From positions 1 to 51,478 of the forward strand of contig JAUCGL010000016.1 in assembly GCA_030378105.1 (NCBI GenBank): a stretch of DNA of 51,478 nucleotides. Direction: 5' to 3'. Positions within the stretch are counted from its first letter, which is position 1. Every line of letters begins with the position of its first letter. The DNA comes from Candidatus Halobeggiatoa sp. HSG11. Its GTDB lineage: Bacteria; Pseudomonadota; Gammaproteobacteria; Beggiatoales; Beggiatoaceae. The notes under the pieces are model-generated. The model saw only the letters and a program-made list of their open reading frames with translations. It was not told the origin of the DNA and did no database searches. Both the position numbers and the translations under genes were made by a program. This document shows, one piece after another, positions 1-9,666 of the stretch.

Positions 1-127
1 AAAAGACGTTGCTTTGGTATCATTAATGTTGGACATTTGTTCCAACGCATATTTTTGGATACTTCAGATAGAAAATTATATGCTTTATAATCAATATATT
101 ATATTCAACGCAAATTACCAAAGAGCC

Positions 128-391
128 TTATTTTTTGGTTGCCTTTGCATTGGGTCGCACTAAACTCATGACAGCCGTGCCATCATTCAAAATATATCCT
201 TCACAGTTTGCAGGGAATTAATTCAATTTTTCCGTAGTGTACGGCTTCTTGCATACTCCGTTAAAAATTATATCATACTGAATTTGTTGGTTGATAAACA
301 AGATTTGGTGGGAGCGTATCCATGAATTGAAAATATTCAAATCTATCCCAATATTAGTTATTGTAATTTGTAATAATTTCAACTTTAAGAG
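128..391 (-). pseudogene. possible coding remnant upstream of the caspase gene
   Basis: In this 400-base gap the minus strand keeps one frame almost open for about 85 codons, broken only by a TAA at 218-220 and ending at a TAA at 128-130. The last stretch reads like a real C-terminus (GYILNDGTAVMSLVRPNAK). I see no start codon or ribosome binding site and do not recognise the family. It may be the decayed end of a lost gene, or a chance open frame. The rest of 1-400 holds the presumed caspase promoter and nothing else I can name. Confidence 0.25.
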
Positions 392-400
392 GGCTACTTA

Positions 401-1519
401 ATGAAAGCTGTAAATATGCGTATTGTTATATGTGTGTTGTTGGTGGGTATAGTTCAATCCACTTATGCTATAGATTCACCTCGCATTGCTTTGCTGATTG
501 GTAATGCCACGTATGAACATGCCGATGATAAATCACTTAGGTCGTTGAATGGACCAATAAATGATGTGAATGGTATGGAGAATATTTTAAGTAATTTGGG
601 GTTTGAAGTTCTTACTTTGGAAAATGCAACTAAATCCGATATGGAAACTGCTTTTAGTAAGTTTGGCCAAAGATTACAAGAAGTTAAAACAGAGCAGAAT
701 GATGTAGTAGCATTGTTTTATTATTCTGGTCATGGAGTTCAGGTTAATGGAATAAATTATTTGTTATCTGCTGATTATGTTCCTCTGCCAAAATTGCCTG
801 ATTTGTTTAAAGAGATTGAAGAGGCTGGTGGTAACAAAAAAAAGATGAATAACATGAGTTATATGTTAAATACTAATCATATTTCAAAGTTAAAAGTTAA
901 ATCTATTTTTGAAAAGCTAAAGAAAATTGGTAATATAGACCAAATTGCAGACAGAAAGTATCTGTTATCTGCTGGTAACAGTGATGTTAATGATTCTGGA
1001 ATTATTCCTTTGCCAAAATTGTACAAAAAAATTAATGATATTAATAAGTTAGGTACTGAGACTTCCAATATTTTTATTATTGATGCTTGCCGTAATAATC
1101 CTCTTCTATCACTTGCTGATATTAGTGATATTGATAAGGCTCTACCTATTGAAGAACTACCATTATCTAATCCTAAGTCTTTTGCTATAGAGACACTTCA
1201 GCAGTTGTTGAATAAAAATATTGGTGATTATAAAGAACCTAATAATTCTATTATTGCTTATGCCTCAACTAGTGGTAAGAGGGCTTATGATATTTTAAAT
1301 GAAAGTATGGATTTTAATAGTCCATACACAGAAAATTTGTTGAAGATAATACCTCAAAGAGGAATATCTGCTTATGAAGTATTCCAAAGGGTGGGGAATT
1401 TAGTTATGGAAGATACAAAGAAAATCCAACAGCCTTGGTTATCTGGTTCATCTTTAGATAAAGATTTTTATTTTGCTGGAGAAATCAAAGCTAGTATGGA
1501 TAGAGGAGGATTTGAGTAA
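401..1519 (+). CDS. secreted caspase-like protease (peptidase C14)
   Basis: Predicted cysteine protease of the caspase/metacaspase clan, probably exported: residues 6-23 form a signal peptide ending near TYA. The p20-like core shows IALLIGNATYEH (29-40), DVNGMENIL (55-63), the catalytic His in YYSGHGVQ (His111) and the catalytic Cys in IIDACRNNP (Cys230). Between these dyad residues lie about 119 residues, roughly twice the usual distance. The extra part looks like a partial duplication, since YLLSA...VPLPKL (about 120-132) recurs as YLLSA...IPLPKL (about 187-206). The start is supported by GAGG eight bases upstream; ATG codon 6 is an alternative. A hairpin follows the stop. The substrate is unknown. 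The family call is firm from the His/Cys motifs; the export call is inference. Confidence 0.85.
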   Translation: MKAVNMRIVICVLLVGIVQSTYAIDSPRIALLIGNATYEHADDKSLRSLNGPINDVNGMENILSNLGFEVLTLENATKSDMETAFSKFGQRLQEVKTEQNDVVALFYYSGHGVQVNGINYLLSADYVPLPKLPDLFKEIEEAGGNKKKMNNMSYMLNTNHISKLKVKSIFEKLKKIGNIDQIADRKYLLSAGNSDVNDSGIIPLPKLYKKINDINKLGTETSNIFIIDACRNNPLLSLADISDIDKALPIEELPLSNPKSFAIETLQQLLNKNIGDYKEPNNSIIAYASTSGKRAYDILNESMDFNSPYTENLLKIIPQRGISAYEVFQRVGNLVMEDTKKIQQPWLSGSSLDKDFYFAGEIKASMDRGGFE

Positions 1520-1526
1520 ATTATAG

Positions 1527-1548
1527 TGGCGGATAAATTTTTCCGCCA
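1527..1548. terminator. bidirectional terminator-like hairpin
   Basis: TGGCGGA and TCCGCCA form a perfect 7-bp stem with an 8-base, T-rich loop, between two convergent genes that end at 1519 and 1558. AT-rich DNA on both sides suits termination in either direction. Confidence 0.6.
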
Positions 1549-1557
1549 TATATTATA

Positions 1558-2559
1558 TTACCAATTAAAATCGTAATTTAAGGATGCTCTAAAACCGACT
1601 ATACTTTCTTCAATTGAACTAAGTTCACTATTTTCATCTTTGTTATCGACAGCTTTCATGTCATATCCATACCAATCTATTGATAAACCATATTTTAAGT
1701 TGTTGGTAATTGGTCCAATCCACGTAACACCAACTCGTCTACCATCAGTTGAATCTGGCTCAACATCAGTTGGTAGGAGTGTACTATAATCAGCGTTCAA
1801 CCATGGTGTATATGCTAAGTTTATTCCTATTATATTCCTACCTATGGGAAAACCATAAGCAATTCCAACAGTAACTCCCTGTGTTGTAAATTTTATATTG
1901 TTTGGATAATTAAATGCATCTAATAATTCTCCTGTTTCTTCTTTAAACCTGTTTGTTCTACTAACTACATCAATGTTAGTTTCACCAAATTTGTAACCGA
2001 CAGAGAATAATAAATTATCATCTAAATTAGTAAATAAATTCGTCGTTTTATAACTTATATTCAATGAATAATCTACACGATAAAATTCTGCACTATTATC
2101 TTCTTCCAAAATAAACCCTCTAGATGGTGGGTTTTCCTCAAAAAAACTATCTTTAGCCGATTGAGATTGTTGAGCATAAATATCAAGAGAAAAATTTTTA
2201 TAACCAGCTGTTATTCCAACTCCAACAATAGGCATGTTACCTTGCCACTCAACATCTTCACTATTTTCATATACTTGTTTGTAAGTTTGAGATATTTTTC
2301 CTATTACGGCTCTTGGTTTAATAAAAAACTTAGGTGCTTGTTCTGCTACCATTTTCAATGGTTTTTTAAAGGAAAATTTTGATTGGAATTTTTTTCCGGT
2401 AGCCTTCGGTACAGATTTTGTAGCATTTCCATCTATATCCTGGTCAATATCAGATACAAAAGCATCAGTTGTTTTTTTTATTTGGGTCGATGTATCAACT
2501 TCAGTAGCAAAAACATCTACAAATATACTTAATAAAATACAAAAGAAAACATTTCTCAT
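1558..2559 (-). CDS. predicted outer-membrane beta-barrel protein
   Basis: A 333-residue protein with an N-terminal signal peptide (hydrophobic residues 4-16, cleavage near VFA). A Lys/Ser-rich linker (about 40-90) follows, then a C-terminal region of alternating hydrophobic residues typical of transmembrane beta strands (GVGITAGYKNFSLDIYAQ, NLKYGLSIDWYGYDM). The last residues, NYDFNW, end in an aromatic residue as in many barrels recognised by the BAM complex. I do not recognise a specific family. It converges on the caspase gene and lies about 300 bases downstream of another secreted protein on the same strand. A porin-like or adhesion role is possible but not shown. Confidence 0.6.
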   Translation of the reverse strand: MRNVFFCILLSIFVDVFATEVDTSTQIKKTTDAFVSDIDQDIDGNATKSVPKATGKKFQSKFSFKKPLKMVAEQAPKFFIKPRAVIGKISQTYKQVYENSEDVEWQGNMPIVGVGITAGYKNFSLDIYAQQSQSAKDSFFEENPPSRGFILEEDNSAEFYRVDYSLNISYKTTNLFTNLDDNLLFSVGYKFGETNIDVVSRTNRFKEETGELLDAFNYPNNIKFTTQGVTVGIAYGFPIGRNIIGINLAYTPWLNADYSTLLPTDVEPDSTDGRRVGVTWIGPITNNLKYGLSIDWYGYDMKAVDNKDENSELSSIEESIVGFRASLNYDFNW

Positions 2560-2679
2560 TATAAGCTATCTCCATTGTTAGGAATCCAAATTGTGGTTTT
2601 TAATACCAAGATAAATATTTGCTGACTATAACAGATTTTGTTGATGATAATAAACTCAATAATTAACAAAGCTCTGTAG

Positions 2680-2760
2680 GGTCGGTGTAATGCAATGAAA
2701 CCGACCATTTCAATGAAATCAATAATGCAAATGGTCACAAATGCAATGCTCCACCGACCT
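2680..2760. repeat. palindromic intergenic repeat (GGTCGGTG family)
   Basis: GGTCGGT at 2680-2686 pairs with ACCGACC at 2700-2706, and the outer GGTCGGTG also pairs with CACCGACC near 2752-2759. ATGCAATG occurs in both halves. It is a short nested inverted repeat in the 309-base gap between two minus-strand genes, of the kind seen as dispersed REP/MITE-like elements. The rest of the gap shows no gene. Confidence 0.5.
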
Positions 2761-2868
2761 CAACAATACTGTTTTATTAAAGTATCAATTAATCCGTTAT
2801 AGCCATATAGTCAGAAATCTTAGATTCCAAAATAATATATCACAATATCAGGCATACCACCGCATCCA

Positions 2869-4788
2869 CTATTTATTAGTAGTAATTTTTGCCACACAAG
2901 TTTCATTACCATTCATTTTTATATTAATCTCTTTATCAGTAAAATTATTATTAATAATACTTTCATTACAGCCAGTCCATTCAACAAACTTTGAATTTGA
3001 AGAAGAGGGAACAATAGCAAGCAAAGTTACTGTTTCTTCAAGATTATATTTTTTGATACAATATGTTTCTGATACAGTATCACTACTCTTACAAGTATCA
3101 TTATGAACACCAATTTTTACTTCACCATCGCCTGTACCAATAAATTGAACTTTCAAATCATAAGTGATTTCTTCAGTAGCTGATTTAGTAAAAATTGCTG
3201 TACAGTCATCCTTATTTTCATTCATTTTGATTACGTTATTTTTCTCATCACATCCTTCCCATTTTTCAAAGTCATAACCATCATTTGGTTCAGCTTCCAA
3301 CTTTACAGGAGTATTTTTCGTGTGTTTACTACAACCAGCACCACAATCTGTACCTTTAGGGTCGGTTGTTACTTTACCGCCTTTGTTATCTTTTACTTTA
3401 ACAGTTAGGGTATATTCAGATTTTGTAGCAGTAAAGGTAGCTGTACAATTCAACTTGTCACTATCCATAGTTACAATAATGTGATTATCATCACCTGTAC
3501 AACCTTCACTCCAACCTTCAAAAATTGATTTAGCATTTTTAGGGACGGCAAACAAATCTACATGGGTCTCAACTTTGTACTTTTCATCACAATCATTGAA
3601 AGTTTCGTTGGTGGTATCATCAGAGGTCCCATTATAACAAGAGATTCCATTAGGATAACTAATAACTTCTCCTTGTCCTGATACTGTTACATTTAGTTTT
3701 TTTGTTTCAACTGGATTTCCTTCCGAATTATACACAAAAATAACTTTTTTTCCTCCATCCCCGAAATAAGCATCCATCTCAAGTTCTTTAAAGAGAAGTG
3801 TATTCTCAATATTTTTTATGTTTGCTACAGCTTCAATAGATGGTAAATAAAGTTTGCCATGTGGTAATGAAACACAATTTTTAGTTTTATTATCACAGTA
3901 TTCATCTGGAATAGAGTCTTCAATTTTAGCAATTGGGATAAAACATTTAGATGGGTCACTATTACACTCCTTCTTACCTTCCTCTTTACCCTTTTCTATA
4001 CCTGCAGAAGTAACAATAGTAATACCACAATTATTCCCTTCATTACACCTTGTATTAACTAACTTCGCAAGTTTGATACTCTGAGTTGCAGTTATTCCAC
4101 AAAAATCTGCACTTTTAGCACAATAATTGTTTATAGAAGTTTTGATATTATCAGGTACTGGCTGTTGAAATATTTTACAATCAACAGGATTTTCCTTACA
4201 TTGTCTTTTACCTTCATTTATACCAGTTAGAGTAACCATTATAGTTTCTCCTTCTGGTGTTGTGATAGTTTTATCGGATTTTAACAATCCTTTACAACCT
4301 TCAATAGTGGGATCTTCCCTACATTGTTTTTTACCCTCATCTACACCAGCTTGAGTGACCATTATGGTTTCTCCTTCTAGTGTTGTGATAGTTGTATCGG
4401 ATTTTAACAACCCTTCACAACCTTTAGTAGTGGGGTATTCCCTACATTGTTTTTTACCCTCATCTATACCAGCTTGGGTAATCTGAGGACAAGTATTCTG
4501 ACCATTACTAAAACCTCTTTCATAGTCTCCTTCTTCACATTTCTTTGGTATATCACATATATCACATTCCTTTTTACCATCAATTTTACCTCTTTCATAA
4601 TCTCCTTCTTCACAGCTCTTTGGTATAGGACATATATTACATTTCTTTGGTTCGGTACAAATGCCGCACTTATCTTTTTGACCAGCATCATAACCTTTAT
4701 CAAAACATATTTGGCAATCTCCTGCTGCAAAAATCAACGCACTAAAAAATACAAAAGCAAATACAAAACTCAACTTAATAAAATTCAT
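2869..4788 (-). CDS. secreted Cys-rich repeat protein with InlB-like repeats
   Basis: I place the start at the ATG at 4788 (GGAA nine bases upstream) rather than the in-frame TTG at 4803. This gives 639 residues beginning with a clean signal peptide (FIKLSFVFAFVFFSALIFAA). The N-terminal third has two 25-residue Cys repeats (IC..PK.CEEGDYERG) and then two nearly identical 41-residue repeats (AG.DEGKKQCRE...LLKSD). The C-terminal 280 residues contain three divergent InlB B-repeat / bacterial-repeat domains, each with a .F..W.GC core and a paired cysteine. The even spread of cysteines suggests disulfides outside the cytoplasm. It is probably a cell-surface or secreted structural or adhesive protein. 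The function is unknown, and the domain call rests on pattern recognition. Confidence 0.65.
   Translation of the reverse strand: MNFIKLSFVFAFVFFSALIFAAGDCQICFDKGYDAGQKDKCGICTEPKKCNICPIPKSCEEGDYERGKIDGKKECDICDIPKKCEEGDYERGFSNGQNTCPQITQAGIDEGKKQCREYPTTKGCEGLLKSDTTITTLEGETIMVTQAGVDEGKKQCREDPTIEGCKGLLKSDKTITTPEGETIMVTLTGINEGKRQCKENPVDCKIFQQPVPDNIKTSINNYCAKSADFCGITATQSIKLAKLVNTRCNEGNNCGITIVTSAGIEKGKEEGKKECNSDPSKCFIPIAKIEDSIPDEYCDNKTKNCVSLPHGKLYLPSIEAVANIKNIENTLLFKELEMDAYFGDGGKKVIFVYNSEGNPVETKKLNVTVSGQGEVISYPNGISCYNGTSDDTTNETFNDCDEKYKVETHVDLFAVPKNAKSIFEGWSEGCTGDDNHIIVTMDSDKLNCTATFTATKSEYTLTVKVKDNKGGKVTTDPKGTDCGAGCSKHTKNTPVKLEAEPNDGYDFEKWEGCDEKNNVIKMNENKDDCTAIFTKSATEEITYDLKVQFIGTGDGEVKIGVHNDTCKSSDTVSETYCIKKYNLEETVTLLAIVPSSSNSKFVEWTGCNESIINNNFTDKEINIKMNGNETCVAKITTNK
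4234..4479 (-). repeat. two tandem 123-bp coding repeats
   Basis: Two adjacent 123-bp units encode near-identical 41-residue blocks of the Cys-rich protein; the start of a third, diverged unit follows. Identity is high at the DNA level, so the duplication is recent or kept alike by recombination. Confidence 0.8.
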
Positions 4789-4817
4789 AATATTAATTTC
4801 CAATCAAGAATTAACAA

Positions 4818-4860
4818 TTAAGAGATAAAATATGTAACTTAATCTAATTTTATCTCTTAA
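4818..4860. terminator. long perfect hairpin between two minus-strand genes
   Basis: TTAAGAGATAAAAT (4818-4831) and ATTTTATCTCTTAA (4847-4860) form a perfect 14-bp stem with a 15-base loop. It lies just after the stop of the upstream lipoprotein gene and 30 bases before the Cys-rich protein gene. It could end the first transcript or act as an attenuator or stabiliser for the second; the stem is AT-rich, so termination is not certain. Confidence 0.45.
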
Positions 4861-4877
4861 AAATAATAATAAACAGC

Positions 4878-5348
4878 TTAACCATCCTTCCTAGCAAACT
4901 CTATCCGATGAACTATATTAGAATCATCATCAAACAAAAAAACTTTAGCATCATAAGCATTAGCTGCATCATAAGCACGTTTATTCTCAACCTGCTCCCA
5001 TACCCAATATGCAACTGTTAAGGTAGCGATAAGTGCTGATCCAAGTGATTTATTATCAATCAACTTATATTCCACATTTCCACCACTGCCCTTAATAGCA
5101 CTTAATAACTTATTCAAGCGATTAGGCATTTTTAATGCACTCAAAGTAAGATATTTTGATGTTTCAACTGTAATTTTCTCTGTCTTTAACGACATAGAAT
5201 CCAGTATATGTTTATCAAAAGCATCAATATCAACAAAGTTAATTCGATCCAAATGTGTAAATTCATTAGAATTCTTTACACTACCAAAACAACCAACAAA
5301 GAATAAAACAATTATTAAATAAAACAATTTCACAAAATAAAATTTCAT
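4878..5348 (-). CDS. predicted lipoprotein, unknown function
   Basis: A 156-residue protein with a lipoprotein signal: a hydrophobic stretch at 8-18 followed by the lipobox VGC (Cys20), so it is probably lipidated and held in the periplasm. It contains a second hydrophobic segment near residues 103-117 (LGSALIATLTVAYWVW) and ends with a charged tail. I do not recognise the family. It is upstream of, and on the same strand as, the Cys-rich secreted protein, but a strong hairpin separates them. A 20-bp palindrome lies about 70 bases upstream of the start codon. Confidence 0.6.
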   Translation of the reverse strand: MKFYFVKLFYLIIVLFFVGCFGSVKNSNEFTHLDRINFVDIDAFDKHILDSMSLKTEKITVETSKYLTLSALKMPNRLNKLLSAIKGSGGNVEYKLIDNKSLGSALIATLTVAYWVWEQVENKRAYDAANAYDAKVFLFDDDSNIVHRIEFARKDG

Positions 5349-5414
5349 TGTTAAATCTCCACAAGTTATAAAAATTAGACATTATACCGATTAAATTTAA
5401 TTACTTGATTTTAC

Positions 5415-5434
5415 TACTATTTAATTAAATAGTA
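5415..5434. promoter_or_regulatory. perfect 20-bp palindrome upstream of lipoprotein gene
   Basis: The core ACTATTTAATTAAATAGT plus one base pair on each side is perfectly self-complementary and has no loop, unlike a terminator. Its place 67-86 bases upstream of the lipoprotein start fits a dimeric repressor or activator site. This is inference from symmetry only. Confidence 0.3.
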
Positions 5435-5588
5435 ATTTCAAATAACTCAATAGGTTACATTAAATTGGTATTAAAGTCTATTATACACCAAACACATACT
5501 AAAATAAATCACAATAACAACCACTACTCAAAAATTTCTACATGCAACATTGCAAGACATAGAAAGGCAAAACTGAAATCAAGATAAA

Positions 5589-6314
5589 TCATATTTTAAT
5601 TCCCTTGGAAGTACAAAACCCTCCACCATAACTCTGTTTCTCACCCAAACCACAAGACAAAGCAACAAACGCCAAAGCTTGACTAGTCTCATCTTCATGA
5701 GGTACTATTTTAAACTTGTTACCAAACAACCTAATTTGTTTCTTATTTTTAATAATGAAAATATTTTCCGGTTTTTGATTCATCAGTTCAATTAATTGAA
5801 TAAAAGTATTTGTTGCTGATATTGGCCTATTATAAACCTGTTGATATTTTTTTGCAACATTATCGTGCAACTGAGTAACTAATTGTACTATATCACCTGA
5901 TTTCTCACGTGTCCAATAAGTGGGTTTGTTATCAATAGTAACAATCGTTGGAGTAACAGTATACAACTCAGTAACAAAAAATTTCTTGACAGTTTTAACC
6001 TTAGTCTCCAGCACCAAAAAATTAGCATTATTGATATTCTTTCTTAATGACTCCACCAAATTATAAATAAAATCTCGATCAACCGCTCGTATAGTCAACG
6101 TATAAATCTTATCCTTTTCATACACTCTACCTTGTTCTGGTGGATAAAAACTGTTAAAACAATAAGGTTTAAAATCCAAACTATTATGGACAGCCAAATA
6201 TCTCTCATCTTGACACATAGAAAAATTTATATATTTAGCAATTATCTCAAAGCTATTTTTAAAAAATATATCTTGTTTAATAAAACATTTACAAGAAAGT
6301 TCAAAGTAATTCAT
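5589..6314 (-). CDS. cas6: CRISPR repeat-processing endoribonuclease Cas6, solitary
   Basis: A 241-residue protein resembling Cas6, which cuts CRISPR precursor RNA within each repeat. Visible family traits are the N-terminal ferredoxin-fold start (FELSCKCFIKQDI), the conserved block ELYTVTPTIVTIDNKP (116-131), the segment FGNKFKIVPHEDE (197-209) and the C-terminal Gly-rich loop GLGEKQSYGGGFC (222-234). From memory it looks closest to the Cas6 type of clostridial and fusobacterial type I-B systems; that is established knowledge recalled, not a search. No other cas gene and no CRISPR array lies in the window, so it may serve a distant array, be an orphan, or have been acquired alone. The catalytic His cannot be assigned by eye. 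No clear ribosome binding site. Confidence 0.75.
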   Translation of the reverse strand: MNYFELSCKCFIKQDIFFKNSFEIIAKYINFSMCQDERYLAVHNSLDFKPYCFNSFYPPEQGRVYEKDKIYTLTIRAVDRDFIYNLVESLRKNINNANFLVLETKVKTVKKFFVTELYTVTPTIVTIDNKPTYWTREKSGDIVQLVTQLHDNVAKKYQQVYNRPISATNTFIQLIELMNQKPENIFIIKNKKQIRLFGNKFKIVPHEDETSQALAFVALSCGLGEKQSYGGGFCTSKGIKI

Positions 6315-6451
6315 AAGGGGGTAGATTCTTTACAATGTTAAAAAAAATAGTAAAATAAGAAAAAATATTACATAAAGATAGTGAATAATCGCAACAATAA
6401 TAGCACAAAATGAAAAAGAATTAACGTTGCAAGTATACTCTGTTGTTGCAA

Positions 6452-6505
6452 GGCATGGGGGAGTCGGTGGGACGGAGCTGCTTTAAGTGCGGCGTTGCCC
6501 GATGA
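6452..6505 (+). repeat. short coding relic, copy 1 (CFKCGVA motif)
   Basis: In the roughly 500-base gene-free stretch 6315-6835, a G+C-richer patch reads GRSCFKCGVAR then stop. The same segment occurs at 48,963-49,019 (RRRCFKCGVAH), and in the CFKCGVA codons the two copies differ only at third positions. This pattern suggests fragments of a once-coding gene family. The parent protein is not identified. The rest of the gap shows nothing I can name. Confidence 0.4.
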
Positions 6506-6835
6506 AACAGGATGTGTCGGGGTAAGTAATAACCTGTTTCGCTGAAAAATTGATTAGTTCACGGAATATGGACGTTCCGGGCATCATGAAATTTCTGCGA
6601 AACTCATTAATTTATTTTTATGATATGTTTTTATAAGAATCTTACTATACGCAGGATAGTTTTAATAAAACATTGTTTAAGTTTTTCTAGTATGTTAATC
6701 TCATTCATGATGGTTTTCTGATGTGTTTATTTTAGGAATGAAACAAAAATAACTTTTCCATTTAATCATGATATAGCAAGTGAAAAAATAGTAAAAATGA
6801 TATAATATTGAAAACATCTGACAAGAAACCCAAGC

Positions 6836-7582
6836 GATGCAAACATATTACCCACGAAACAAACAATGCGTTCTTTCTTCAATACGTTAAATGAAAAAGA
6901 CCGCCGTCGATATGCTGGAATAGGGGCATTGAAGCTTGGACACGGAGCTATGATATACATAGCAGGTGTACTTGGTAGCCGTAAAATAGTTAAAAAAGGT
7001 GCAAGGGAGGTCAGTGGTTTATCTTCGCTGGAAGTACAGGAACGTATTCAATAACTTAAGCGTATTCGGAAACATGGCGAATGTTATTCGTAGGTGGGAT
7101 GAGTAGCAAACTACTGACAATCCAATTATCAGTAGGATACCAAGAAAAAAGAACATTTGGGTAATTTTTATCGGGAAGAACGACTATATACCCTTGAAGA
7201 GTTGCATGCCTTCGAACATGATTTTAAAAGCCATGCAAACGGTATTATCATTCCCAATAGCATTTACGACATGAAGCTCAATACCGGGTATATCCAAATC
7301 GGAACTAGTTGTGATACAGGTGAATTTGCTTGTGATAGTTTCCGTCATTGGTGGTACAATTTTGGTATTGTGTGATAGTGGTGGTAGCAATAGTTCTCGC
7401 CATTATTTGTTCAAATCTGATCTCCAAGCACTAGCACAGGTCTGACAGCATTCGTTCACATCATTGACAAGGTATATCAAACTAGCAGGAAAGTTGCGGA
7501 TGACTTCAAAAAAAATATGCTGATTATGTTTGATGACTTTATGCCTCAATGGAATTATCAGGCTATTCCACAATCTTTTTCA
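6836..7582 (+). pseudogene. decayed ISAzo13-family transposase
   Basis: Fragments of one transposase can be read in order in shifting frames. 6866-7054 gives the N-terminal helix-turn-helix part (EKDRRRYAGIGALKLGHG). 7157-7375 gives the catalytic-core part (YDMKLNTGYIQIGTS, then EFACDSFRHWW). After an in-frame TGA the text continues as CDSGGSNSSRHYLFK, then jumps to HIIDKVYQTSRKVADDFKKN and DDFMPQWNYQAIPQ. Compared with the family as I recall it, a large middle part of the core is deleted at least twice and several stops and frameshifts are present. It is therefore a dead element. I found no clear terminal inverted repeats. Confidence 0.75.
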
Positions 7583-7676
7583 AATGGGAAAGTTATTTTA
7601 AGTTTCATTCCTTAATTATTTTATCAGAAAATAACCTTCTTTTTCATACTTCTTTAGAATTATTCCAAACACCATT

Positions 7677-8783
7677 ATGAACATGCCAATATTAATATTA
7701 ATTCTACTATTACCTTCCATAGTTAATGCCCAAGAAACAAAACCAGATGTTTTTCGGGTTGCCATAAAACCTAGCGAACCTTGGGTTATGTATGACGACA
7801 AATTACCCCCAAAGAAAAGAAATCCAGTTGGTTTTAGTATTGATTTATGGAAAGGTATAGCTGAAAAACTAGAAGTTAAAACTAAATGGATTTATACTAA
7901 AAATGTTTCCGAGCTTTTAACAGTCGTACAAACTAATAAAGCAGAAATTGGTATATCAGCAGTTACTATTCGTAGTGATCGAGAAAAAATTATAAACTTT
8001 TCTACTTCAATGTTTGAACTAGGATTGCAAATTATGCTACGAGCTGATATTGGTGTTAGTACGCCATTTAAAGTCTTGAAAGAGGAAGTAGGTAAATTTA
8101 CCACTGTTCCCAATTTTCTGATTTTTATATTCGCTTTATTTATAGCCATCAACGTCAGATGGTGGGCTGATACTAAGGACACTGGTATTAAACTATTTCC
8201 CCAAACTTATTGGCTAGGTGTTAATTCAGCTTTTTGGTGGTCCATAACTATGTTAATTACTTGGGATGCTCCAAGAAATAGAGGTGGATTAGCTAGATTT
8301 ATTGATCTATGTTGGCATTTTACTGGCCTAGTTGCTATGAGTGTATTGACCGGTATTATTGCGGCAGCTTTGACAATTCAAGCTGTTGGAGGAACTATAA
8401 AAAATGAGAAAGATTTACCCGGTAAACGAGTAGCAGCGGTGGCCACTGATGCCCCAAAAGATTATCTTAAAAGTATTGGAGCTATAGTTATTCCAGTTAA
8501 TACTTTAAATCAAGGTATTAACATGCTGATAAATAAAAAAGTTGAAGCTTTAGTGCATGATGGCCCACGTTTATTATATTTGGCCGAACAGATTAATCAA
8601 ACTGAGGAAAAAGTTATAGTTTTACCGGCAGTGTTTAACTATCAAAATTATGGTATTGTGCTACCCAATGACAGTAAATATTTAGAAGAAATCAATTTAG
8701 AGTTATTAAAATTGCGTGAATCAGATGGATTAGATAGCTTTCATTCAAGGCTGAAAAAGAAGTGGATTCCAGAATTCGAGTAA
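7677..8783 (+). CDS. GluR0-like ligand-gated ion channel (SBP-pore-SBP)
   Basis: A 368-residue protein: signal peptide (1-18), first half of a periplasmic amino-acid-binding domain (about 24-130, with the ligand-type motif SAVTIRSDRE, Arg102 being the likely carboxylate ligand), TM1 (146-163), re-entrant pore loop (180-200), TM2 (213-236), then the second half of the binding domain (about 240-368, GKRVAAVATD, VHDGP). This is the architecture of prokaryotic ionotropic glutamate receptors, which work as tetramers in the inner membrane. The pore loop reads FWWSITMLITWDAPRN and lacks the K+ filter TVGYGD of GluR0, so its ion selectivity may differ. No clear Shine-Dalgarno sequence precedes the start; ATG codon 3 is an alternative. 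The ligand cannot be told from sequence. Confidence 0.75.
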   Translation: MNMPILILILLLPSIVNAQETKPDVFRVAIKPSEPWVMYDDKLPPKKRNPVGFSIDLWKGIAEKLEVKTKWIYTKNVSELLTVVQTNKAEIGISAVTIRSDREKIINFSTSMFELGLQIMLRADIGVSTPFKVLKEEVGKFTTVPNFLIFIFALFIAINVRWWADTKDTGIKLFPQTYWLGVNSAFWWSITMLITWDAPRNRGGLARFIDLCWHFTGLVAMSVLTGIIAAALTIQAVGGTIKNEKDLPGKRVAAVATDAPKDYLKSIGAIVIPVNTLNQGINMLINKKVEALVHDGPRLLYLAEQINQTEEKVIVLPAVFNYQNYGIVLPNDSKYLEEINLELLKLRESDGLDSFHSRLKKKWIPEFE

Positions 8784-8787
8784 TTTT

Positions 8788-9666
8788 TTAAAGTTTGTGA
8801 TCTAATAATAAGCTAGTTCCGGGCATTTGTAGATATTCCAACATATTTTCTGTTGTGCTTCTATAAACATTTCTTTTATTTTTAAATACTGTATCATTCA
8901 ATAGTAAGGATAAATTTATTGAAATGCCATAGTATAAATGACGTGATGTTTCTTGCATTCCAGTACCGTCAGTTGGTTGATAACCTCTGGTTCCATAACC
9001 AACTGCCAGTTCTAAATAGCGAGAAAAAATATTCTGCCGCAAAAAGGGTATGCCACTTGCTTTAACAACAAATAAATAAGTTTGACCTGAATAATCGGCT
9101 AGTGGATCATATTCTTTTAATTCTTTGGCATCATCAGAAGGCCAGTATTTTAATCGGAAGTCAAATAATTCATCCCATTGTGGATAACTTTCTAAAAATA
9201 CTCCCATACCGATACCAGATAAATTCATGATCACATCTTCGGTACTAAAACCATATTCATCAGTTAAACCATCCATGATTTCAACTCCGACTGACAAAGT
9301 GGCAGAAGTTAAACCTGCTAATTTGGCCGCTTGTTTACTGCCGTGTCCAGCCCACTCAAAACCTTTTTTAAGTAATCTAGTGCTTACATAAAAAGAATAA
9401 CCATGTCCTAACTTATCAGCTCCACCATTTGGAGTATCTGCATCAAACCAACCCTCATGCCTTACTTTAAATGTTGTTGAACTATCATCCCACCATGCGG
9501 TAGCTCCATACAATGCTGTACCTAAAGCTACACTGGAAATTAATAAATTAGTACGAGTTGATTTGAGATCATTATTTTTTGAATTATATTTGGAAATTGG
9601 AGAAATAATTTCGGCATTTGCATATGTTGAAACAGACATACAAATTATTATCAAATATTTCTTCAT
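8788..9666 (-). CDS. DUF2279 family envelope protein
   Basis: A 292-residue protein with a signal peptide (cleavage near ANA, residue 18). It has the DUF2279 signature: DKLGHGYSFYVSTRLL (about 84-99) and, further on, GVEIMDGLTDEYGFSTEDVIMN (spanning about 126-147), in which the Glu/Asp and the D..N..G pattern are the conserved part. The C-terminal third is rich in aromatic and small residues (RHLYYGISINLSL), like beta strands of an outer-membrane domain. The family is related to the E. coli lipoprotein YfiM and has no known function. It starts 3 bases after the pilE-like gene, so the two are probably cotranscribed, and its stop converges within 4 bases on that of the channel gene. Confidence 0.65.
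   Translation of the reverse strand: MKKYLIIICMSVSTYANAEIISPISKYNSKNNDLKSTRTNLLISSVALGTALYGATAWWDDSSTTFKVRHEGWFDADTPNGGADKLGHGYSFYVSTRLLKKGFEWAGHGSKQAAKLAGLTSATLSVGVEIMDGLTDEYGFSTEDVIMNLSGIGMGVFLESYPQWDELFDFRLKYWPSDDAKELKEYDPLADYSGQTYLFVVKASGIPFLRQNIFSRYLELAVGYGTRGYQPTDGTGMQETSRHLYYGISINLSLLLNDTVFKNKRNVYRSTTENMLEYLQMPGTSLLLDHKL

Follow-up and report, generated by a model that had tools for sequence, protein, structure and literature searches.

An open reading frame in the genome of Candidatus Halobeggiatoa sp. HSG11 encodes a protein of the prokaryotic ionotropic glutamate receptor type in which a short acidic loop, T-W-[D/E]-x-P, stands in place of the K+ filter TVGYGD. Judging from sequence, we consider it fairly probable that this protein is an amino-acid-gated, non-selective and perhaps Ca2+-permeable cation channel. 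Animal glutamate receptors are non-selective cation channels, and GluR0, the bacterial receptor named as functionally characterized, is K+-selective. A short acidic non-K+ filter and a K+-type paralogue in one genome would provide a compact system for testing K+-filter replacement, and the same system may show what use bacteria make of amino-acid-gated depolarization. The gene lies in the stretch of DNA analyzed here (51,478 nucleotides; hereafter, the window), which belongs to a genome of 5.2 Mb in 326 contigs.

Architecture of the protein

The original prediction assigned to positions 7677-8783 of the forward strand a GluR0-like order of lobe, transmembrane helix, loop, transmembrane helix and lobe, and translation, Pfam and hydropathy all bear this out. 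The 368-aa product comprises, in order, a signal peptide, S1, M1, a pore helix and loop, a second pore-lining helix and S2, so named in the following features:

7677..8783, + strand: coding sequence of the glutamate-receptor-like protein, 368 aa (open reading frame translation, Pfam, homologues)
7677..7730, + strand: predicted signal peptide, aa 1-18 (hydropathy; probable cleavage after VNA, judged by eye)
7749..8066, + strand: S1 half of the ligand-binding domain, aa 25-130 (SBP_bac_3, Lig_chan-Glu_bd, alignment to 2pyy; borders chosen by us)
7980..7982, + strand: Arg102, the presumed ligand-carboxylate arginine of S1 (R aligned in 62 of 63 homologues; role from PMC2950845)
8103..8168, + strand: M1 transmembrane helix, aa 143-164 (hydropathy; helix 144-167 in a low-confidence model)
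8226..8258, + strand: pore helix SAFWWSITMLI, aa 184-194 (alignment to TVGYGD-type receptors; helix 182-194 in a low-confidence model)
8259..8267, + strand: short filter T195-W196-D197, at the place of TVGYGD in K+-type receptors (alignment; T-W-[DE] in 8 of 8 clade sequences)
8268..8309, + strand: loop exit APRNRGGLARFIDL, aa 198-211 (alignments)
8310..8384, + strand: second pore-lining helix, aa 212-236, corresponding to M2 of GluR0 and M3 of eukaryotic receptors (alignments, hydropathy)
8388..8762, + strand: S2 half of the ligand-binding domain, aa 238-362 (Pfam, PDB matches; borders chosen by us)
8559..8561, + strand: Asp295, the presumed ligand-amino-group aspartate of S2 (D aligned in 59 of 63 homologues; role from PMC2950845)

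Translation could alternatively begin at an in-frame ATG at 7683. By hydropathy the signal peptide spans aa 1-21, M1 about 137-166 and the second helix about 208-242, and there is one marginal segment within S2 (aa 267-285, score 1.32). The Pfam model SBP_bac_3 runs from aa 27 to 364, across the insertion, at 60.5 bits (cut-off, 26.4), and the S1 model Lig_chan-Glu_bd scores 37.2 bits (cut-off, 30). The Pfam model Lig_chan falls below its cut-off in the window protein (24.1 versus 30.8) and is subthreshold in two orthologues tested as well; Ion_trans_2 was not found by Pfam in any of the three. An AlphaFold monomer model, built from six sequences (that of the window protein and five homologous ones), is of poor quality (mean pLDDT, 46; pTM, 0.36); its helices at 144-167, 182-194 and 205-236 fit M1, the pore helix and the second helix, a fit that carries little weight at this confidence.

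The two halves S1 and S2 thus flank two membrane helices and a P loop, as in prokaryotic ionotropic glutamate receptors. ABC solute-binding proteins have no inserted helices and are encoded alongside a permease and an ATPase. The window protein does not belong with them, because two membrane helices sit inside its binding domain, ABC permease and ATPase domains are absent among the 10 window proteins scanned with Pfam (out of 44 open reading frames of at least 120 aa), and no NCBIfam model, transporter models included, reaches its cut-off (the best, GlnH, gives 84 bits of 303).

The nearest PDB match is 2pyy, a bacterial receptor ligand-binding domain (E value, 6e-31), which we take to be that of the Nostoc receptor; PDB matches also include the Slr1257 domain of Synechocystis. 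Prokaryotic receptors hold their ligand with an arginine in S1 and an aspartate in S2, and both are present here as R102 and D295; Ger et al. describe the arginine as contacting the α-carboxyl group of the ligand and the aspartate its α-amino group (PMC2950845).

The loop and its distribution

As predicted, the loop is not TVGYGD; it reads ITMLITWDAPRN, and the stretch between the helices is SAFWWSITMLI-TWD-APRN (aa 184-201; 8226-8279). The second pore-lining helix carries SVLTGIIAAALT at the position of SSYTANLAAFLT in AMPA receptors.

A scan of genome contigs found five loci matching at 63-86%, from Thioploca sp. (three), Thiotrichales bacterium HSG1 and Candidatus Parabeggiatoa. Some homologue is present in 15 of 42 Beggiatoaceae genomes at an E value of 0.001, an order-level search giving the same 42 genomes, and the T-W-[D/E]-x-P-[R/K] form is found in nine of them (G000, G002, G009-G012, G024, G027 and G028), from 4 of 25 genera. 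After de-duplication, the T-W-[D/E] set numbered eight: the window protein and L003-L007, L013 and L014, the L005 sequence starting at the end of a contig and L013 being about 29 residues short in S2. The loop is not a product of chance, because seven other distinct, near-full-length homologues (51-86% identity) keep it. The G024 copy was counted among the nine genomes and left out of the eight-sequence comparisons; its loop is LLTWEAPKNRG. In this homologue (G024:C411:985-2075) a single TGA splits the reading frame into overlapping pieces, pointing to a pseudogene or an assembly error. Beyond the family, matches at an E value of 1e-15 occurred in 13 of 369 genomes of a class-level draw and 23 of 398 of a phylum-level draw, the source genome being counted in both. 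Plasmid records with a match numbered 33, of which 11 were taken in. Among the aligned homologues from outside Beggiatoaceae, which come from these partial draws on one phylum and from plasmid records, none has a T-W-[D/E] loop, and a scan of viral contigs gave no relative. A phylum search with Pfam Lig_chan drew many short K+ channels lacking a binding domain, eight of which were kept solely as an outside comparison.

Loop types were compared in 63 homologues of at least 300 aa, a collection gathered by similarity to the query and with Pfam Lig_chan that is not a census and whose classes are patterns of our own. The TVGYGD type accounts for 27 (one of them TVDYGD), an SGKxxxxNLFG-like loop for 10, T-W-[D/E]-x-P for 8, an NGGFEE-like loop for 5, QADQMPR-like and T[KR]GPFNY loops for 4 each, MTQA for 3, and other loops for 2. 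TVGYGD is absent from 36 of the 63, and the lack of it is not unusual in itself, because it is one of several prokaryotic loop types. The alignment of prokaryotic pore loops that the original prediction proposed as a check therefore sustains one part of it, in that the loop differs from TVGYGD, and qualifies another, in that several other non-K+ types exist; T-W-[D/E]-x-P differs from QADQMPR, SGKxxxxNLFG, T[KR]GPFNY, NGGFEE and MTQA alike. The T-W-[D/E] loop is also shorter. From the aromatic pair to the next loop proline there are 10 residues in all eight T-W-[D/E] rows, 12 in all four QADQMPR rows and 14 in 25 of the 27 K+-type rows (for the other two the automatic count failed); in the SGK and Vibrionaceae types, some of which give counts of 10 or 8, the position of the proline is not comparable.

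A tree of 59 rows was built with the loop columns excluded and no root inferred, after 16 of 75 hits (fragments, hits without the membrane block and K+ channels without a binding domain) had been dropped. The eight T-W-[D/E] rows fall on one branch with L017 (support, 100/100), inside which L017 has a very long branch and a weak placement (84/25). The T-W-[D/E] label needs two changes on this tree, and one change in 14% of 200 bootstrap trees; because L017 sits within the clade, weakly placed, the T-W-[D/E] rows are not established as one group. The non-K+ loops do not form one clade. At least four changes separate K+-type from other loops (three of them forced by starred branches), and the loop type has therefore switched several times; since the root was not inferred, gain and loss are indistinguishable on this tree. 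L017 itself (G001:C43:36251-37303, minus strand; 374 aa) lacks the S1 arginine stretch, has asparagine in place of the S2 aspartate and carries the loop IIGWEGVDTSRG; it may be a subunit that does not bind ligand, or a receptor in decay.

The membrane block: channel or anchor

The original prediction would have failed had homologues pointed to a solute-binding protein with a non-channel membrane insertion. That case is disfavored both by homology of the membrane block and, within the genus, by constraint on the loop and second helix. A profile of the membrane block from the eight sequences (aa 132-250, including 13 S2 residues) matches five Beggiatoaceae TVGYGD-type receptors in hhalign with a probability of 98.6% (E value, 5e-16; 100 columns), whereas one reversed and five shuffled controls gave 0.09-0.57%, at most 0.6%. 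The block is thus homologous to that of K+-type members, with the 13 S2 residues forming part of the matched segment. Against eight plain K+ channels the same profile found no pore match, giving 23% over 29 columns around M1 (scrambled, up to 1.2%), and the TVGYGD receptors matched these eight at 99%. Plain K+ channels thus match the TVGYGD receptors but not the pore of the T-W-[D/E] profile, which makes its kinship with K+ pores an indirect one.

Constraint was compared over six regions with borders of our choosing. Within the genus (five sequences, 10 pairs), dN/dS is lowest in the second helix (0.018) and in the pore helix plus filter (0.037), against 0.142 for S1, 0.069 for S2, 0.169 for M1 and 0.088 for the linker between M1 and the P region. 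Invariant columns tell the same story: the two pore regions have 45 of 50, compared with 153 of 231 in the ligand-binding domain (Fisher P = 0.0005) and 12 of 22 in M1 (P = 0.0013). Over all eight sequences the differences are not significant (pore, 25 of 50; ligand-binding domain, 81 of 231, P = 0.054; M1, 6 of 22, P = 0.12); dN/dS is then 0.113 for the pore helix plus filter and 0.083 for the second helix, with the other regions at 0.095-0.247 and S2, at 0.095, falling between the two pore regions.

The chief alternative, which we regard as unlikely yet worth weighing, is that the protein has lost its pore and, no longer conducting, acts as an amino-acid sensor or binding protein tethered to the membrane, its helices serving to anchor or oligomerize it and the protein perhaps handing its ligand to a transporter. 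The lack of a recognizable K+ filter and the subthreshold Lig_chan score would fit such a protein, as would the absence of significantly greater pore conservation over all eight sequences. Degeneration does occur in the clade, L017 having neither the S1 arginine nor the S2 aspartate and L013 being short of S2 residues, and the Candidatus Parabeggiatoa homologue has a gene for a sodium:alanine symporter at a distance of about 0.7 kb (L007:1909-3267). However, a pure anchor predicts drift in the loop and second helix like that in M1; within the genus it is these regions and the pore helix that are most constrained while M1 drifts, which makes a mere anchor less probable. Invariance of T-W-[D/E]-x-P would also be needless for an anchor, the membrane block shows homology with that of TVGYGD receptors, and none of the 10 scanned window proteins has an ABC transporter domain.

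Ion selectivity and proposed mechanism

The filter acid is aspartate in five of the eight sequences (all of those from the genus) and glutamate in the other three, so that the charge is kept while the residue varies. Cyclic nucleotide-gated (CNG) channels offer a comparison: their filters TIGE and TVGD are described as non-selective and repelling Cl- (PMC10761061), the glutamate of TIGE attracting cations and accompanying non-selective monovalent permeation. On this analogy of the filter acid, passage of mixed cations would be expected; mixed positive ions probably pass upon amino-acid binding, selectivity is probably not K+-like, and anion permeation is unlikely. With a tryptophan in the filter, the pore could be constricted or blocked.

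We envisage a protein that resides in the inner membrane and faces the periplasm. A ligand, which we infer to be an amino acid, would bind between S1 and S2, touching Arg102 and Asp295, and close the clamshell, and closure would tug on the two membrane helices of a putative tetramer. The pore would then open, with the shortened T-W-[D/E] loop as its filter on the cytoplasmic side. There, four carboxylates would encircle a filter both wide and short, which would let Na+, K+ and possibly Ca2+ through with little discrimination and keep anions out. The cell would be depolarized by such a channel, whereas the TVGYGD-type paralogue that this genome also encodes would conduct K+.

It is also conceivable, if rather improbable, that the channel is selective for a single cation such as Na+ or Ca2+, the carboxylates and the tryptophan forming a high-affinity divalent or Na+ site. 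Acidic rings form such sites in Nav and Cav channels, and the window protein has one conserved acidic position with an adjacent tryptophan; against this, the loop seems too short for several defined sites, and the predicted structure is of low confidence. That the receptor is anion-permeable or K+-selective we find very hard to credit, even though Arg200 and Arg202 follow the filter and the K+-type paralogue makes a K+-type ancestor plausible on an unrooted tree, as Arg200 occupies a P-R/P-K position common to 11 of 27 K+-type loops (by our count), which means that its charge is not new, the filter acid is kept in eight of eight sequences, and the GYG residues are gone. The anion permeability raised in the original prediction hence finds no support, the filter acid being retained as in CNG channels.

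We offer a further reading as a tentative suggestion that we hold to be possible but somewhat doubtful: a CNG-like short acidic filter (T-W-D/E) may have evolved independently in the inverted pore of a bacterial glutamate receptor, giving an excitatory, Ca2+- or Na+-passing amino-acid receptor that would work in one cell together with a paralogue conducting K+. The paralogue in the source genome (L002, G000:C281) is of the TVGYGD type, with 33% identity and an Ion_trans_2 domain, and a TVGYGD- or TVDYGD-type homologue accompanies the T-W-[D/E] form in four of its nine genomes (G000, G002, G012 and G027), some of the others being incomplete.

Relation to known receptors and channels

The closest description in the literature is that of the Group 2 prokaryotic receptors of Ger et al. 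(2010), 10 of 22 sequences without a K+ filter, whose P regions were not recognized by the authors as resembling channels of known selectivity (PMC2950845). Like them, the window protein has the S1-M1-P-M2-S2 topology, the arginine and aspartate ligand residues and a P region without a K+ signature; it answers to the description of Group 2, a group defined by an absence. The expectation that its selectivity would be unlike that of known bacterial receptors has consequently to be given up in that form, as other non-K+ prokaryotic receptors are both known (PMC2950845) and found here. The window protein would represent, on sequence grounds, a new loop class within a protein type that is itself already known. 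Both the T-W-[D/E]-x-P loop and, in the present sampling, its confinement to a single family look new, the comparison with the 2010 set being one with its published description. A literature search over titles and the beginnings of abstracts, mostly outside subscription journals, turned up no report of currents through a non-K+ prokaryotic receptor.

With GluR0 of Synechocystis and its Nostoc relative (Group 1, K+-type), the window protein shares its architecture and ligand-binding domain but not the filter, TVGYGD being replaced and the distance from the aromatic pair to the proline reduced; the K+ signature and Ion_trans_2 domain of Group 1 are absent from it and present in L002. The loop exit and second pore-lining helix align with those of the AMPA receptor GluA2, albeit weakly (E value of 0.083 for the M1-to-M3 stretch alone). 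Unlike GluA2, it has no M4 helix and no N-terminal domain, as is the case for GluR0 (PMC6385376). The likeness to CNG channels, a short filter of threonine, a hydrophobic residue and an acid (TIGE; PMC10761061), is one of comparison only: the ligand domain is different, the filter of the window protein has no glycine, and the membrane orientation of glutamate receptors is expected to be the opposite (PMC2950845).

Two further kinds of loop were seen among the relatives. Ten receptor-like proteins (L042, L043, L046, L047, L049-L051, L076, L101 and L102) have a basic, acid-free loop such as SGKSPSRKNLFGW, and six of the seven named ones come from alphaproteobacterial plasmids. If any prokaryotic receptor passes anions, these may be better candidates than the window protein. 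The K+-type receptor L023 (G027:C307) has the filter TTVDYGD and not TTVGYGD.

Genomic neighborhood

The 10 scanned window proteins comprise a caspase-like, an InlB-repeat, a Cas6-like and a DUF2279 protein, four of type IV pilin type and two without a match. A DUF2279 gene also follows in L004 and L006 and was not found in the examined stretches, of unequal length, of L003, L005, L007, L013 and L014. Neighbors elsewhere include the symporter of L007, an AAA protein (L003) and a radical SAM protein (L005), and no fixed partner gene is evident. The Cas6-like gene (5589-6314, minus strand) matches Cas_Cas6_C at 30.4 bits; positions 1-9000 of the window showed no CRISPR array, all direct-repeat families of at least 22 nt having at most three copies. 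A protein with a caspase domain (Peptidase_C14) is encoded at 401-1519 on the plus strand. The gene at 2869-4803 on the minus strand encodes InlB-type B-repeat domains and contains tandem repeats of 123 and 75 bases, both multiples of three.
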